From Bradyrhizobium sp. SZCCT0148 (GTDB lineage Bacteria; Pseudomonadota; Alphaproteobacteria; Rhizobiales; Xanthobacteraceae), in contig NZ_JAFCKT010000003.1 in assembly GCF_018129985.1 (NCBI RefSeq), positions 62,001 through 126,000 on the forward strand: DNA of 64,000 nt, in the 5' to 3' direction. The translations under genes were made by a program, and so were the position numbers. Under the pieces are notes generated by a model. The model saw only the letters and a list, made by a program, of their open reading frames with translations. It did no database searches and had not been told where the DNA came from. Shown here piece by piece: positions 1,133 to 7,841 of the stretch. The stretch's first letter is position 1, and the number at the start of each line of letters is the position of its first letter.

Positions 1133-2485
1133 TCACCCGCCGCGCTCTGCGAGCGCGTCGGCCTCTCCTGCAAGCGGGAGACCCGGAGCAGGCGGCACCG
1201 GCATCGGCACCGTCACATAGTGCTTCGGCAAATTCACCGGCCGGTAGTCCGGCTCCGCCGCGATCCGCTTCAAAACGCTCTCATGCACATGGGCGCCTTC
1301 GGGGATCAGGCGCGGCTCGCAATCGGGGATGTACAGGCCGAGAAACACCTTCCGCTCCGGCCACTCCCGGTACTTCGCGCTCTTCGGAAAGACCTCCAGC
1401 ACCCGCCAGCCCGCTGTCATGGAATCGTGCAGCATGCCCGTCTTTCCGGTGTAGGCCGGCGCGACATACTGGAACGGCGAGTTCTTGCGCTGGACGCCCC
1501 AGGCGAGCTGCTTGATGGTCGCCGGGTTGAACTGCAGCCCCGCCTTCTCCGCCTCCGCGATCATCCAGATCAGCGGATATTTGGAGTCGCCGCTTTGCGC
1601 CTCCGGATAGCCGCCGCCGACGTCGCTGTGCACGCCGGCGAACCACACCTGCAGAATGTCCTGCGGCACCTTCTTCTCGTCGGGCACATAGCGGTTGCTC
1701 CAGAACTCCTGCGGCTCCTCATATTTGTTGAGGCGGAACATACGGCGCCGCTCGTCGATCGCGATCGCCTGCCGGAAGGTCCTGACGCTGGGATTGCGCC
1801 GCGTGAAGGCGAGCTCCTCCAGGCTGAACAGGAAGAACAGATTGTCGCGCCGCGGCACGATCACGCTCGCCACCGTGTCCCAGACGCCGATGAAATGGAT
1901 GGTCGGCCAGCGCGTCGAGGTGATGCGGGCGAACTGGGCGGCGAGGTCGAACTGGTCCTTCGGCAGCGGCCCCTGGTCGTCGACATCGACATCCCTGAGG
2001 TCCGCGACGTCGTTACCGCGCCCGGTGCCGGAATATTGCTTGTAGGCGACGAGCCCCGAGCCTGCGAGGTTGGCCTGCTCCGGCCTGACCAGCCCGATCT
2101 TGTGGATCAGCCCCGCCAGCACGCGAACCGTGTAGGCGCCGCGCGAGAAGCCGAATAGATAGATCCTGTCGCCGGGCGCGTAATGCTCGACCAGGAAGCA
2201 ATAGGCGCTGAGCACGTTGTCATCGAGCCCGTAGCCGGTGGCGAGCCCCAGCACCAGGTTGATGTTGGCCTTCAGGCGGTGCCACGTCGTCGGCTGCGTC
2301 ACCGTGCCGACGCCGGGATCGTAGAACACCAGCTGCCGCGGCGACGTCTTGTCGGTCTTGCGCAGGCAGCGGTACAGCTTCAGGACGTTGGAGATGTTCT
2401 CCGAGATCTCGTTGCCGGTGCCGTCACAGCAGATGACGAGATGTTTCGGCTCGGATCTGGTCGCGGTGGTGTGGGCCTGCTCCAC
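1133..2485 (-). CDS. DUF2235 domain protein (alpha/beta-hydrolase fold, putative phospholipase-like)
   Basis: The 450-residue product begins with the DUF2235 signature HLVICCDGTGNEIS (about residues 15-28). The nucleophile elbow GFSRGAYTVRVLAGLI is at about residues 107-122, with Ser in GFSRG. FAGVHSDVGGGYPE (about 280-293) supplies the conserved Asp/His region. Members of this family occur as T6SS lipase effectors and as stand-alone cytosolic hydrolases. No secretion signal and no VgrG or immunity partner is seen nearby, so an effector role is not supported here. The start is GTG, with GGAGG placed 8 nt upstream. The substrate is unknown. Confidence 0.85.
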   Translation of the reverse strand: MEQAHTTATRSEPKHLVICCDGTGNEISENISNVLKLYRCLRKTDKTSPRQLVFYDPGVGTVTQPTTWHRLKANINLVLGLATGYGLDDNVLSAYCFLVEHYAPGDRIYLFGFSRGAYTVRVLAGLIHKIGLVRPEQANLAGSGLVAYKQYSGTGRGNDVADLRDVDVDDQGPLPKDQFDLAAQFARITSTRWPTIHFIGVWDTVASVIVPRRDNLFFLFSLEELAFTRRNPSVRTFRQAIAIDERRRMFRLNKYEEPQEFWSNRYVPDEKKVPQDILQVWFAGVHSDVGGGYPEAQSGDSKYPLIWMIAEAEKAGLQFNPATIKQLAWGVQRKNSPFQYVAPAYTGKTGMLHDSMTAGWRVLEVFPKSAKYREWPERKVFLGLYIPDCEPRLIPEGAHVHESVLKRIAAEPDYRPVNLPKHYVTVPMPVPPAPGLPLAGEADALAERGG

Positions 2486-4008: not shown

Positions 4009-4287
4009 ATGCCACTCACCGCCAGCCGTTTCATCGCCTACGATCAGGACCGCGGCATCGTCCAGTTCTCGCTGCAGGACGGCACCAGGGAGATCGCCTG
4101 CGCGATCTCGACCTCCGCGATGGACGACCTCGAACGCGGCCCGCGCGCCAGACCCAGCGAGCGCGAAGCCCAGTTCACCCGCCTGAGCGAGCGCATCGAA
4201 GCCTGCGTCGAGCGGAAGTATCAGGCGACGGAGTTCGAGGGGACCCCGCCGGGCATCGTGCTGCGGAGCATTGATTTTCGGGGGTAG
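4009..4287 (+). CDS. DUF1488 family protein
   Basis: The 92-residue sequence has the DUF1488 pattern: an N-terminal F(I)AYDQDRGIVQFSL strand pair, then CAISTSAMDDLE and a helix ending in YQATEFEG. DUF1488 proteins are small proteobacterial proteins of unknown role. The start at 4009 has AGGAG at 9 nt. It is the last gene before base composition turns AT-richer, and so marks the left edge of the island that follows. Confidence 0.7.
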   Translation: MPLTASRFIAYDQDRGIVQFSLQDGTREIACAISTSAMDDLERGPRARPSEREAQFTRLSERIEACVERKYQATEFEGTPPGIVLRSIDFRG

Positions 4288-4489
4288 GGGAAGAGGGGCG
4301 AATCTGGTCTGAAGCTCGTATCTATAAACCGATACCTCGGGCCACGCTCCCGTTGGCGGCGGGGCGCAGTTAGCGATCGAGTTTCGGCCCGGCGAACGTA
4401 CAAATTTCTTGAGTATGTCGGCCATGGATCGTTCCGGCCTATTGCGCCAACAAGCAACCTTTGGTTTTCTTAGGTGTTAGGGGAAGCTG

Positions 4490-5602
4490 ATGGCTGCAAA
4501 ACTACCTGCCGATCAAGATCTTGGCGAGACTGATGACAACGAGGATTTCTCGTTCCCTCCGGCCGAACGTCGAGTAATTACACAACCGCTCGATCTGTCC
4601 GTCCAAACTCTACAAGAGCAATGGGGTTCTAAGCAGCTCGTACTACCCGATATTCAACGCGAATATGTATGGGATTCTGCGAAGGCGAGCCGGTTGATCG
4701 AATCTCTCCTTCTCAATATCCCAATTCCTGTTTTGTATTTTGCTGAAACGGAGGAAGCGAAATACGAAATATTTGATGGCCATCAGCGTGTCCGTTCGAT
4801 CGTGAATTACTTGGGGGGCCTTTATCCGCTTTCCGGTCTGGCCGTACTTAGAGAATATCGAGGTCTCCGATATCTGGAATTGCCCGACCGCGAGCAGCGC
4901 TTTCTAAGGATGCGGACTCTCAGAACGATCTTGATTTCAATTGACTCCCATCCGAACATGAAGTTCGAAATATATGAGCGCTTAAATACCGGTTCCATTT
5001 CGCTCAACGCGCAAGAACTTCGTAACTCTATCTACCGTGGACCGTTTAACGACTTGTTGCACGAACTCGCTAACCTTTCTTCCTTTCGCGTGCTTATCGG
5101 AACGAAGATGCCGCGCAAGCGAATGGTTGATGAAGAAGCAATACTTCGCTTCTTTGCAATGAGAGAGAAGTTGGGGACTTATAAGACTCCGCTCAAAAAA
5201 TTCTTGAATGAGTTTATGAGCACCGTGAGATCCGCCGATTCTCAGAAGATAGAAGCATATCGAGCAGCTTTCATTCGAGCCGTAGATACGGCTGCCGAGC
5301 TATTGGGTCAGTCAGCTTTTCGGGTGCTCGGCCCAAATGGCGAACCTGCCGAAACGGCGGTCAATCGTGCGCTACTCGAGTCTCAACTTCTGGCTTGTTC
5401 ATGGGTTGCGGGCACTTCTTTGCCGAGCAAAAAAGCAGTGAAGAAAAATGTCGCTGCACTTTTCATGGATGAGACATTTACAGATGCTGTTCAGCGAGCG
5501 ACGGGCGATCGTTCGAGAACTCTAAAGCGAGTAAGAGATACAGTCGCTGCGATACAGGATGCAGGAGCCAAAATGCAGGTTCCTCACAATCTCAGTCACT
5601 AG
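4490..5602 (+). CDS. DUF262 domain protein (GmrS/ParB-N-like)
   Basis: The 370-residue protein carries the DUF262 hallmarks. LPDIQREYVWD (about residues 53-63) is the R-x-Y-x-W motif and IFDGHQRVRSI (about 88-98) corresponds to the DGQQR nucleotide-binding motif of the ParB/sulfiredoxin-like fold. LNAQELRNSIYRG (about 170-182) is the N-x-Q-E-x-R-N segment. There is no C-terminal DUF1524 HNH nuclease domain, so it is a GmrS-like half rather than a full GmrSD restriction enzyme. An AGGGGAAG ribosome site supports the start. The next gene begins 2 nt after the stop. Codon and base use are AT-richer than in the flanking genes, which suggests horizontal acquisition. Confidence 0.85.
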   Translation: MAAKLPADQDLGETDDNEDFSFPPAERRVITQPLDLSVQTLQEQWGSKQLVLPDIQREYVWDSAKASRLIESLLLNIPIPVLYFAETEEAKYEIFDGHQRVRSIVNYLGGLYPLSGLAVLREYRGLRYLELPDREQRFLRMRTLRTILISIDSHPNMKFEIYERLNTGSISLNAQELRNSIYRGPFNDLLHELANLSSFRVLIGTKMPRKRMVDEEAILRFFAMREKLGTYKTPLKKFLNEFMSTVRSADSQKIEAYRAAFIRAVDTAAELLGQSAFRVLGPNGEPAETAVNRALLESQLLACSWVAGTSLPSKKAVKKNVAALFMDETFTDAVQRATGDRSRTLKRVRDTVAAIQDAGAKMQVPHNLSH

Positions 5603-5604
5603 CC

Positions 5605-6291
5605 ATGCCCTCTTCATCGCTTCAAGCATTGATCGCTGCACTAGACGAGGTCACTCATTTGGGTGCTGCTTCACACCCGACGCTTGCTCGCAATTCGCCC
5701 GAGTCGCTAAAGCTTGCTCGTGCAGTCGGCCGAGGACAGGCGGTGCTCCTTTCTTCTCACTTCGAGCGTTATATTTACTCGGTGAATGAAGAGCTTGTAA
5801 CCTTGCTCAACACACTAAATCTGGCGGGGGATAAGATCCCGGATCGAATTCGGTTGCAACACTCAATTGTTCCCATCGATGAACTGGGACGAACAGGTTG
5901 GGAGAATCGTGCACCGAAGCTACTCGACTTCACAGCGAATGAGGCTTGGATTTGGAGTGCTCATTCTGGCGGTGCGATACTGCACGATCGCCTGCTTATG
6001 TGGATGAAGGCCCCTCATCCGAAAGACCTTGTCCGATTTTTCAAATTGTGGGGCTTAGACGACATCTTTAAACAGATCACGCGAAAGGAAAGTTCTCGAA
6101 AGACCTTGTGGCTTGGCGTGCAGGGGCTTGTTGACCTCCGGAACAACATTGCACACGGCGACTACACGGCGCAGGCAACACAAGCGGACATAAAGCGCTA
6201 TATGCGGGGTATCCGAGATTTTTGCGAGCGGGCCGATCGTCACCTGTCAGTGAGTATTGCAAAACAGTTCAATGTGCCGCGGCCGTGGTGA
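5605..6291 (+). CDS. HEPN domain protein (MAE_28990/MAE_18760-like putative RNase)
   Basis: The 228-residue protein has the C-terminal helix LVDLRNNIAHGDY (about residues 177-189), which supplies the HEPN R-x4-H motif (RNNIAH) used by this superfamily for metal-independent RNA cleavage. Upstream, LLSSHFERYIYSVNEELVTL (about 48-67) resembles the first long helix of the MAE_28990-like HEPN family. The ATG is 2 nt after the DUF262 stop with no good ribosome site, so translational coupling is likely. Together the two could be a toxin-antitoxin or abortive-infection pair. The RNase role is inferred from the motif, not proven. Confidence 0.75.
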   Translation: MPSSSLQALIAALDEVTHLGAASHPTLARNSPESLKLARAVGRGQAVLLSSHFERYIYSVNEELVTLLNTLNLAGDKIPDRIRLQHSIVPIDELGRTGWENRAPKLLDFTANEAWIWSAHSGGAILHDRLLMWMKAPHPKDLVRFFKLWGLDDIFKQITRKESSRKTLWLGVQGLVDLRNNIAHGDYTAQATQADIKRYMRGIRDFCERADRHLSVSIAKQFNVPRPW

Positions 6292-6379
6292 CATTTCCGA
6301 AGCTAAATGGAATCAGTTTTGATGCGCGCTTATCGTGCGGAGACGGCTCGACCCCTGTGAGCGATACTTGGTCGTACGA

Positions 6380-7342
6380 CTAATCCCCCCAAACCCCTGC
6401 GCTCTTTGAATCAACGAAGGTATACTGCACCTTTGATCTATTTGATTTTTGATATTTCGCGAGTTTGCCATCAAGCGCAGCTAGTTCATTGAGGTCGTAT
6501 ATGCAAAAATATAAATGGCTTATTTTTGAAGCGAAGAGCGCGTTATAGATATGAGCATCGTTATCGTCTGCGGCCGAACCGTACACGAAGAAGCAGCCCC
6601 TGCTTTCCTTCAGGCGTTCGAAGCAAAGCTTTAGATAGGGTATCGAAGCGATCCGTGCCTGCTTTGATTCCGTGGATCCTTCGGCAACGTATATGGGGAA
6701 GCGATTATTATTCTCGATTGTTTGTGCGATGGCTTCGAGCCCGCCGTCTGCTCCTGCCAGCCGTTTCTCTGTCTCTCCATCTTTCCGGAGAAACAAATGA
6801 AGCCCACCGTGAATATTATACACGTTGCATCGGTTGTCCTCGACGAACGGGCCACGGAAACCATTTTCTTCTTGGGCGAGATAAAAACCGTCGCCGAATT
6901 GCCGGGACTTAATCATCACCCAATAGAGAAGAAGATCGTAGTTGGTCGTGAATACGCGGATGAATGGATTTAGAAACTCTAAGCAATTCGGGATCACACC
7001 CTTGATCTTATCCAAATGGGTAGGATGGGCAGCCTGAATCGCTGTAATCAGCGCCTTTCGTACCACTTCGGCGTCGGCTAACAGTTTGTCCGCCTCAACT
7101 TCCCGGCCGTATGCACGCTCTACGATTGCTGCATCCTCCAATGCTCTCACTACGCGTTCGAAATTTGGAGTATCGAGGCGGTCAAACAGAATGCGACACG
7201 GAGCGTCTGCTGCAAGCCCCGACTTATCGAGCAGGGTTCTATAACCACAGTATGCGGCTGAAAATCCGTTACCCAACAATATCGAGCAAGATTCGTTGCC
7301 GATCTTTTTTAAAGCTGCATCGAAGCGGAGTATCTCGGGCAT
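6380..7342 (-). CDS. DUF4917 family protein (SIR2-like)
   Basis: The product (320 residues from the ATG at 7342; a GTG at 7351 adds three) matches DUF4917. SCSILLGNGFSAAYCGY (about 18-34) is the GNG(F)S nucleotide loop. IRVFTTNYDLLLYWVM (about 130-145) is the TTNYD motif shared with SIR2-like defence proteins. FFVYGSAADDNDAHIYNAL (about 253-271) is the C-terminal Y-G-S...D-x-H-I block. Known SIR2-like relatives deplete NAD+ during phage infection; for DUF4917 this remains inference. The gene converges on the DUF262-HEPN pair and shares its AT-rich composition. Confidence 0.75.
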   Translation of the reverse strand: MPEILRFDAALKKIGNESCSILLGNGFSAAYCGYRTLLDKSGLAADAPCRILFDRLDTPNFERVVRALEDAAIVERAYGREVEADKLLADAEVVRKALITAIQAAHPTHLDKIKGVIPNCLEFLNPFIRVFTTNYDLLLYWVMIKSRQFGDGFYLAQEENGFRGPFVEDNRCNVYNIHGGLHLFLRKDGETEKRLAGADGGLEAIAQTIENNNRFPIYVAEGSTESKQARIASIPYLKLCFERLKESRGCFFVYGSAADDNDAHIYNALFASKISHLYFCIYDLNELAALDGKLAKYQKSNRSKVQYTFVDSKSAGVWGD

Positions 7343-7372
7343 GCGCTGCACATCCAGTGGTTGTGTTGAGTT

Positions 7373-7401
7373 TATTTACAGATCTGCGATTTCGGTGTCG
7401 A
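7373..7401 (-). promoter_or_regulatory. putative sigma70-type promoter of the DUF4917 gene
   Basis: Read on the minus strand, TCGACA (7396-7401) and TAAATA (7373-7378) are separated by 17 nt, about 30 nt upstream of the start codon. This is a sequence match only. Confidence 0.4.
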
Positions 7402-7425
7402 CCCTCTGTTGAATTGCTAATCGAA

Positions 7426-7459
7426 TAAACAAAAACGGCCGGATCTTCCGATCCGGCCG
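7426..7459 (-). terminator. intrinsic terminator of rpmB
   Basis: CGGCCGGATC (7436-7445) and GATCCGGCCG (7450-7459) form a perfect 10-bp stem with a TTCC tetraloop. On the minus strand the stem is followed by a T-rich tract (complement of 7426-7435). It lies about 70 nt downstream of rpmB and also separates it from the island. Confidence 0.85.
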
Positions 7460-7529
7460 CAACGCAAACTCTTACTCGGCTAAGCCTACGCCACGCGACG
7501 CAACCTAGCCCCCGCCCAATTCTGAAATC

Positions 7530-7841
7530 TCAGCTGGCCTTCTTGGCCGGTGCGGCCGTCGGGCCGACCTTCTTCTGGATGGCGCGCTTCAGGTCGAGGG
7601 CGCGCGGCGACAGGACGTCGGCCTTGGCCTTGAGCAGGTAGGCGTCGAGGCCGCCGTTGTGGTCGACGCTCTTCACCGCGTTGGTGGAGACGCGCAGGCG
7701 CACGTTGCGCTCCAGGGCTTCGCTGATGAAGGTCACGTTGACCAGGTTCGGCAGGAAGCGGCGCTTGGTCTTGATGTTGGAGTGGCTGACCTTGTGGCCG
7801 ACGAGGGGGCCCTTGGCCGTCAGTTCGCAGCGGCGAGACAT
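7530..7841 (-). CDS. rpmB: 50S ribosomal protein L28
   Basis: The 103-residue protein starts [20 protein letters not shown] and has the L28 core [30 protein letters not shown]. The alphaproteobacterial C-terminal extension ends [15 protein letters not shown]28 is a structural protein of the large ribosomal subunit. The ATG at 7841 is chosen because it matches the universal MSR(R/V)CxLTGK start; upstream in-frame codons lack conservation. It is monocistronic, with a strong terminator downstream. Confidence 0.95.

Follow-up and report, generated by a model that had tools for sequence, protein, structure and literature searches.

A site for variable immune-type genes downstream of rpmB in Bradyrhizobium, and the DUF262-HEPN and DUF4917 genes found there in strain SZCCT0148

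The island and its site beside rpmB

The window analysed here, a stretch of 64,000 nucleotides from Bradyrhizobium sp. SZCCT0148 (contig NZ_JAFCKT010000003.1, positions 62,001 to 126,000 of the forward strand; host genome of 7.17 Mb in 42 contigs), carries between its DUF1488 gene and rpmB an AT-rich island filled by three intact open reading frames (ORFs), which encode a DUF262 protein, a HEPN putative RNase and a DUF4917 protein. We regard it as rather likely that a hotspot 3' of rpmB takes many alternative cargoes, of which this island is one, and that the island holds two separate immune modules, namely a PD-T4-2-like DUF262-HEPN pair and a stand-alone DUF4917 gene. The immune island is real and foreign, and ordinary in its parts; the hotspot is worth describing.

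Judged by the families that its cargo matches, the region 3' of rpmB serves as a defence hotspot in the genus; the variable, immune-type cargo matches models for Gabija, Lamassu, Zorya, short-pAgo, Dsr1 and RT-Toprim. In a search of 146 genus genomes, DUF1488 and rpmB were found, on a reading by eye, to be neighbours in 34 relatives whose interval was measured (19 + 15); all 34 intervals differ in length, ranging from 767 to 7,549 bases with a GC content of 0.50-0.64, and 31 of them display an ORF of at least 130 amino acids (aa) with a GC content below 0.6 (none in L077, L263 and L274). Scanned jointly, 46 cargo ORFs match 228 families, and LmuB, LmuA, LmuC, Dsr1, IetS, GajA and NsnB are among the 25 listed. 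Single cargo ORFs, which were picked by hand, revealed a PADLOC match in nine out of ten cases in a first set (including GajB at 5e-222, LmuB at 3e-163, a HamB-type protein and IetS) and in eight out of ten in a second (including GajA at 7e-285, RT-Toprim_I-C at 3e-217, Dsr1, ThsA and a DndC-type protein). A similar picture came from twenty hand-chosen genomes of the rpmB list that lack DUF1488 synteny: except for G010 and G087, all of them (18) carry an ORF of 273 aa or more with a GC content below 0.6 that starts no more than 4.5 kb after rpmB, and the largest such ORF in the first ten of these genomes, a set fixed by rule (largest AT-rich ORF), matched PADLOC in 7/10 cases, including short pAgo (4e-194), ZorA (6e-134), Dsr1 and GajB. 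Some of the matches counted in these sets are weak (DpdB 6.7e-6, Dsr1 1.4e-7, RTasRmuC 7.1e-9). As a control, ten core ORFs of the window, hand-picked for a high GC content at third codon positions (GC3), gave one match. By eye, some cargo recurs, with DndC-type ORFs in G058 and G130 and PIN-type ORFs in G026 and G061, and several of the genomes without DUF1488 synteny have the Tle1-like gene as their second flank.

Three relatives illustrate how the cargo varies. G026 has a 100% identical DUF1488 protein followed by other small genes, one of them probably the PIN_10 match. G022 holds, at the same site, an intact DUF4917 gene (43% identity) beside an LmuB-type gene and without the DUF262-HEPN pair. 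In G115 (L260:1292-3876), the same rpmB site carries a DUF262 gene (NsnA, 115.6 bits) and, behind it, an ATPase-type ORF, which matches NsnB weakly (4.2e-14) and HEC-04 best. The hotspot has a constant edge at the rpmB terminator (relatives L062-L081 and L260-L294). The DUF262-HEPN pair is absent from all 34 relatives that share these flanks, alternative cargo being found instead, which supports a foreign island that was not inherited vertically at the rpmB site; vertical inheritance there in all relatives is what the preliminary description of this DNA had named as speaking against its reading. Since the relatives keep many different immune-type genes at this site, ORFs there without a PADLOC match are good candidates for new defence genes. 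Among the matches listed in open-licence full texts, there was no description of a defence site 3' of rpmB in Bradyrhizobium or rhizobia.

The features of the island and its flanks in the window are as follows.

4009..4287, forward strand: DUF1488 gene, left core flank (Pfam DUF1488, 47.8 bits)
4287..4304, no strand: left edge of the island, where nucleotide homology with 19 relatives stops (blastn of the flank, alignments ending at query 123-140, where query 120 is base 4284)
4490..5602, forward strand: DUF262 (GmrS/ParB-like) gene, 370 aa (Pfam GmrSD_N, 85.3 bits, cut-off 33.2)
5605..6291, forward strand: HEPN (RiboL-PSP-HEPN, PF18735) putative RNase gene, 228 aa (HEPN_RiboL-PSP, 47.2 bits, cut-off 28.4)
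6380..7351, reverse strand: DUF4917 SIR2-like gene (Pfam DUF4917, 159.3 bits, cut-off 28)
7417..7432, no strand: right edge of the island, where homology with the 19 relatives restarts (blastn, alignments beginning at query 385-400, where query 501 is base 7533)
7435..7460, reverse strand: terminator-like hairpin 3' of rpmB, 11 pairs and a T tail (consensus scan)
7530..7841, reverse strand: rpmB (ribosomal protein L28), right core flank (Pfam Ribosomal_L28, 84 bits)

The edges at which homology breaks agree almost exactly with the AT-rich island that had been placed at 4290-7430 between DUF1488 and rpmB, and the three immune-type families named for it are present, each with a Pfam match over its cut-off. 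The DUF1488-rpmB interval measures 3,249 bases with a GC content of 0.503, against 0.64-0.69 in the adjoining 500-base windows, and the GC3 of the DUF262 and DUF4917 genes amounts to 0.47 and 0.53, compared with 0.89 for the Tle1-like gene, 0.91 for DUF3108 and 0.86 for a helicase. Other ORFs of at least 80 aa in the island merely overlap the three genes in other frames. On the rpmB strand, the right edge follows directly after the hairpin at 7435-7460, which looks like the rpmB terminator; its stem is the longest among the six terminator-like sites of the region (5.1 in shuffles). A promoter scan of the region gave no sigma-70-like site, versus 2.1 in shuffles. As had been noted for this island, no integrase or transposase was matched by Pfam in its three proteins, and a repeat scan for direct repeats found short, imperfect matches alone, possibly due to chance, such as the one at 4277/4470 (17 bases, 82%), which is of a kind that is often chance. 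NCBIfam gave no match for the DUF262, HEPN or DUF4917 protein up to E 1.

Elsewhere in the genus, fragments of the genes on the far side from rpmB lie close to the cargo, and we infer that they are scars of past exchanges. Pieces of the Tle1-like gene, degraded, from its 5' part and always lying within residues 1-98 of 450, occur in 12 of 55 loci (weakest E 2e-4), and partial second copies of DUF1488 in 7 of 55, one of which (L066) has no rpmB in its stretch.

Tle1-like 5' fragments near cargo: L076:7585-7756, L077:4993-5109, L078:4571-4765, L079:4562-4726, L080:8286-8441
Tle1-like 5' fragments near cargo: L261:1591-1840, L264:4553-4735, L266, L269 and others
Partial second DUF1488 on the rpmB side of the DUF1488 gene: L062:1877-2104, L065:5205-5330, L066:5215-5361, L070:5377-5530
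Partial second DUF1488 on the rpmB side of the DUF1488 gene: L074:5141-5282, L075:5624-5848, L272:3549-3756

A tentative and rather doubtful proposal is that cargo of the genus-wide hotspot is exchanged by recombination anchored in rpmB, with no integrase involved, and that the scars at the far edge stem from donors ordered rpmB-cargo-Tle1, an order still found in several relatives. The window itself shows no exchange scar, because its gaps (4288-4489, 6292-6379 and 7352-7434) have no match to relatives beyond a single one of 21 bases.

Two further observations concern the surroundings of the site. A Tle1-like phospholipase gene (window positions 1136-2485, 280.8 bits) lies beside the hotspot, with full copies of about 66-90% identity in relatives. 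On inspection by eye, some relatives, such as L074 (in the interval next to DUF1488) and L279 (downstream of rpmB), have a high-GC ORF resembling FtsZ, which was not seen in the interval of the window.

The DUF262-HEPN pair

A DUF262 gene followed by a HEPN gene is a recurrent two-gene operon. Of 385 genomes of the class, 18 have a PF18735 match over the cut-off and 32 have one at E <= 0.001. Starting from HEPN, we found a DUF262 gene immediately before it in 14 of these 18 (the window genome included), and also in 3 of the 12 genomes with weaker matches whose locus was examined. An expanded HEPN profile gave 101 matches among 8,193 ORFs, of which 96 adjoin a DUF262 gene, many of the loci having been fetched around DUF262, and 94 of these 96 HEPN proteins reveal the R-x-H motif at the expected spacing. 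The two partners also vary together: across 81 non-redundant pairs, the pairwise identities of DUF262 and HEPN correlate with r 0.795, the highest value in 2,000 permutations being 0.088. The pair also occurs on contigs classed as viral, since HEPN follows 67 of the 80 DUF262 relatives kept from them (214 confirmed), a proportion that overstates the linkage because the query alignment was built of HEPN-paired DUF262 proteins. Within the genus, 26 of the 146 genomes bear a DUF262 relative, and seven of these, including the window genome, have an adjoining HEPN match. In some of the HEPN-negative genus loci, downstream ORFs with an RNxxxH-like motif were seen that the profile had not called.

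The DUF262 protein of the window matches two PADLOC models, NsnA with 255 bits (3.1e-76) and PD-T4-2_A with 153 bits (2.4e-45), in each case across the greater part of the model and in the latter over positions 51-353 of 363. The pocket motif D-G-x-Q-R is present as DGHQR, and P53, Q56, R57, D96, G97, Q99 and R100 are invariant in 13 aligned sequences. Its predicted model (pLDDT 88.3) is essentially helical in residues 150-357, and BrxU (top), ParB/Noc, SspE and sulfiredoxin are among the best Foldseek matches. The preliminary description had called it GmrS-like and without an HNH partner, which holds: GmrSD_N is matched, and a DUF1524/HNH nuclease domain is absent from all three island proteins by Pfam. 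The closest DUF262 protein in the genus (G008, 38%) has no HEPN match.

The HEPN gene begins 2 bases past the DUF262 stop codon. Its product shows the motif RNNIAH, and all 16 aligned HEPN sequences, 15 of which adjoin a DUF262 gene, have E54, R179 and H184 in common. At E 0.01, at least 11 of these 16, the window protein included, miss the PD-T4-2_B models and two to five match, ten having been scanned singly without a match and a joint scan having given two members for each of the three models. Because the profiles miss so many of the aligned HEPN proteins, systems of this kind are probably under-counted. No plasmid matched the window HEPN, and a HEPN search of the genome collection gave one relative only (L002), which is 70% identical. 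At L002:1331-2428, that gene sits, on a reading of the sequence by eye, behind apparent RelE-type and HTH-type small genes, and its first residues differ from those of the window protein.

With two genes 2 bases apart, one of them for a HEPN RNase, a family whose members are often toxins according to the available part of PMC3710099, the pair may also be viewed as a toxin-antitoxin module, in which HEPN would be the toxin and DUF262 its neutraliser and whose main role would be maintenance of the element; the presumed PIN_10 gene at the same site in G026 would suit this. However, DUF262 is a larger NTPase with intact motifs, unlike a small antitoxin, and PD-T4-2, which has the same composition, protects against phage (PMC9519451, as far as its text was at hand). 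We consider the toxin-antitoxin reading improbable, although wiring of this kind and phage defence do not exclude each other.

The DUF4917 gene and its apparent independence of the pair

The DUF4917 protein probably starts with the ATG at 7342 (MPEILRF..., as in its homologues) and not with the GTG at 7351. It matches the PADLOC candidate family PDC-S21 over positions 1-335 of 336 (271 bits, 3.1e-81). Its AlphaFold2 model (pLDDT 86.4) has as best fold matches BcThsA (E 5.6e-5), SIRT2, a Sir2 homologue, KomC and SPARSA, a profile finds a SIR2-like PDB chain with E 0.0071, and all 16 aligned sequences share G27, N28, G29, S31, N137, D139, H181 and G182 (G27-N28-G29-x-S31). The predicted fold and these invariant motifs are in line with the SIR2-like nature that had been suggested for the protein, and the conserved N and H are what we take to be the SIR2 catalytic pair.

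DUF4917 is rare, occurring in 8 of the 385 class genomes, in 6 of the 146 genus genomes (its own included) and in 34 plasmid records; among the matches listed in open-licence full texts, one paper names it, in connection with an Arcobacter plasmid. Ten plasmid neighbourhoods displayed varied company, including toxin-antitoxin, restriction, mobilisation, phage-type and other genes. The only DUF262 gene in these ten, of 621 aa and unpaired, lies near DUF4917 on pRL11 of Rhizobium johnstonii, and the profiles used found no HEPN in them. Two of the plasmid loci deserve mention in their own right: on pRL11 (L128), DUF4917 adjoins a type I restriction locus, and on a Vibrio europaeus plasmid (L130) it stands among small genes flanked by DUF3265, an arrangement that looks integron-like by eye.

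The possibility that the three island genes form one system, with DUF4917 as a second, NADase effector licensed by the DUF262-HEPN pair, rests on their sharing one AT-rich block of similar GC content; among the cases examined, they stand together nowhere else. Seven genus genomes carry the pair and six carry DUF4917, and the overlap is the window genome only. In stretches of 15-19 kb, none of the five other genus DUF4917 loci shows any part of the pair, DUF4917 is found at none of five other genus pair loci (five of six covered), and the pair is found at none of four other class DUF4917 loci (four of seven genomes covered). On viral contigs, many of whose stretches stop at contig ends, DUF262 or HEPN occurs in 0 of 27 DUF4917 loci and DUF4917 in 0 of 80 DUF262 loci. 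Three class genomes (G000, G165 and G193) hold both DUF4917 and HEPN against a chance expectation of 8 x 32 / 385 = 0.67, one of them being the ascertained window genome and the other two having the genes on different contigs. In addition, the DUF4917 gene is convergent and not co-transcribed with the pair, and G022 holds a DUF4917 gene at the same site beside its LmuB-type gene, but lacks the pair. The trio as one system was thus rejected for want of co-occurrence in the other genomes, plasmids and viral contigs examined, and we regard it as very unlikely.

DUF4917 therefore appears independent of the DUF262-HEPN pair, which is one of the two options that the preliminary description had left for it. 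Co-occurrence above chance had been put forward as support for the trio; in the material examined, DUF4917 and the pair were never together outside their own genome, the very outcome that had been named as speaking against a single system. The preliminary description had also known of no system with this exact trio, and indeed no description of DUF262-HEPN-DUF4917 was among the matches listed in open-licence full texts, yet the pair within it has a known composition, that of PD-T4-2. The supposed new three-gene system is replaced by two smaller units that can each be tested.

Proposed function and comparison with known systems

For the pair, the DUF262 protein, a ParB/Srx-type NTPase, would sense infection, and its nucleotide binding or hydrolysis would release or activate the HEPN RNase partner, which may then cut RNA and stop the phage, probably to the detriment of the cell itself. 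The SIR2-fold DUF4917 protein, once triggered, would degrade NAD+, so that infection is aborted. Each of these steps, from the sensing through the RNase and NADase activities to protection against phage, is predicted from the protein families concerned.

Several results weigh against the reading of the island as a PD-T4-2-like pair beside a separate SIR2-like module. The window DUF262 scores higher on NsnA than on PD-T4-2_A, and its fold matches are weak by TM-score (0.27 to BrxU). For the window HEPN, a threshold as loose as E 1 still gave no match to a PD-T4-2_B model; no paired HEPN from another genome shares more than 23% identity with it, and its one close relative, the L002 protein, lacks an adjoining DUF262 gene. 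With the profile used, HEPN was not found in 19 of the 26 genus genomes that have a DUF262 relative. For DUF4917, the TM-scores are moderate, at 0.35-0.46 among the best eight fold matches.

Among the known systems close to the pair is PD-T4-2, a two-gene anti-phage system of E. coli ECOR65. PD-T4-2 is listed under both DUF262 and PF18735 HEPN in the accessible text of PMC10952713, and its deletion from the native strain raises T4 plating, as reported in the part available of PMC9519451; operons of RiboL-PSP-HEPN with ParB-type genes had been noted before (PMC3710099, likewise in part). The order is the same, a PF18735-type HEPN gene coming after the DUF262 gene in both, and the window DUF262 agrees with component A over most of the model, yet its HEPN partner stays outside the component B models, and host and locus differ. 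Because of that HEPN, we file the window pair as PD-T4-2-like only, on the strength of sequence matches, and do not claim proven membership.

Menshen, for which Nsn probably stands (going by the model names, the NsnB-matching ATPase-type ORFs and the accessible text of PMC10952713), combines NsnA with an OLD-type partner. The window DUF262 matches NsnA, its best PADLOC model (255 versus 153 bits), and G115 shows, at the same site, DUF262 followed by the ATPase-type ORF with the weak NsnB match, which would fit a Menshen derivative whose NsnA-type sensor swapped its ATPase/nuclease partner for a HEPN effector. However, no NsnB-type (OLD/AAA) gene adjoins the window DUF262 or was met in the island, a HEPN gene standing there instead, and the NsnA and PD-T4-2_A profiles do not separate the families, because all 13 HEPN-paired DUF262 proteins scanned match both. 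A Menshen derivative is accordingly held to be unlikely, if somewhat less so than the toxin-antitoxin module.

With the type IV restriction systems GmrSD, BrxU and SspE, the window protein shares the DUF262 domain, the ParB/Srx fold and the DGxQR motif, BrxU being the top fold match, whereas a DUF1524/HNH nuclease domain is neither fused nor adjacent in the window. Compared with SIR2 NADase effectors, the DUF4917 protein is predicted by its model to have the SIR2 Rossmann-type fold with a conserved N and H. From PDC-S21 it shows no difference, with a full-length match and a SIR2-like fold; no paper naming that family was found in open-licence full texts.

The site as a whole is of the same kind as the core defence hotspots of Pseudomonas aeruginosa (PMC10250203). 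As far as the available part of that paper describes them, cDHS1 and cDHS2 likewise hold variable immune cargo of lower GC content between constant core genes and are occupied in most genomes. The rpmB site differs from them in genus, in its flanks (rpmB together with DUF1488 or the Tle1-like gene) and in its intervals of 0.8-7.5 kb; the window has no tRNA at the edge of the site, and the cargo adjoins the rpmB terminator.

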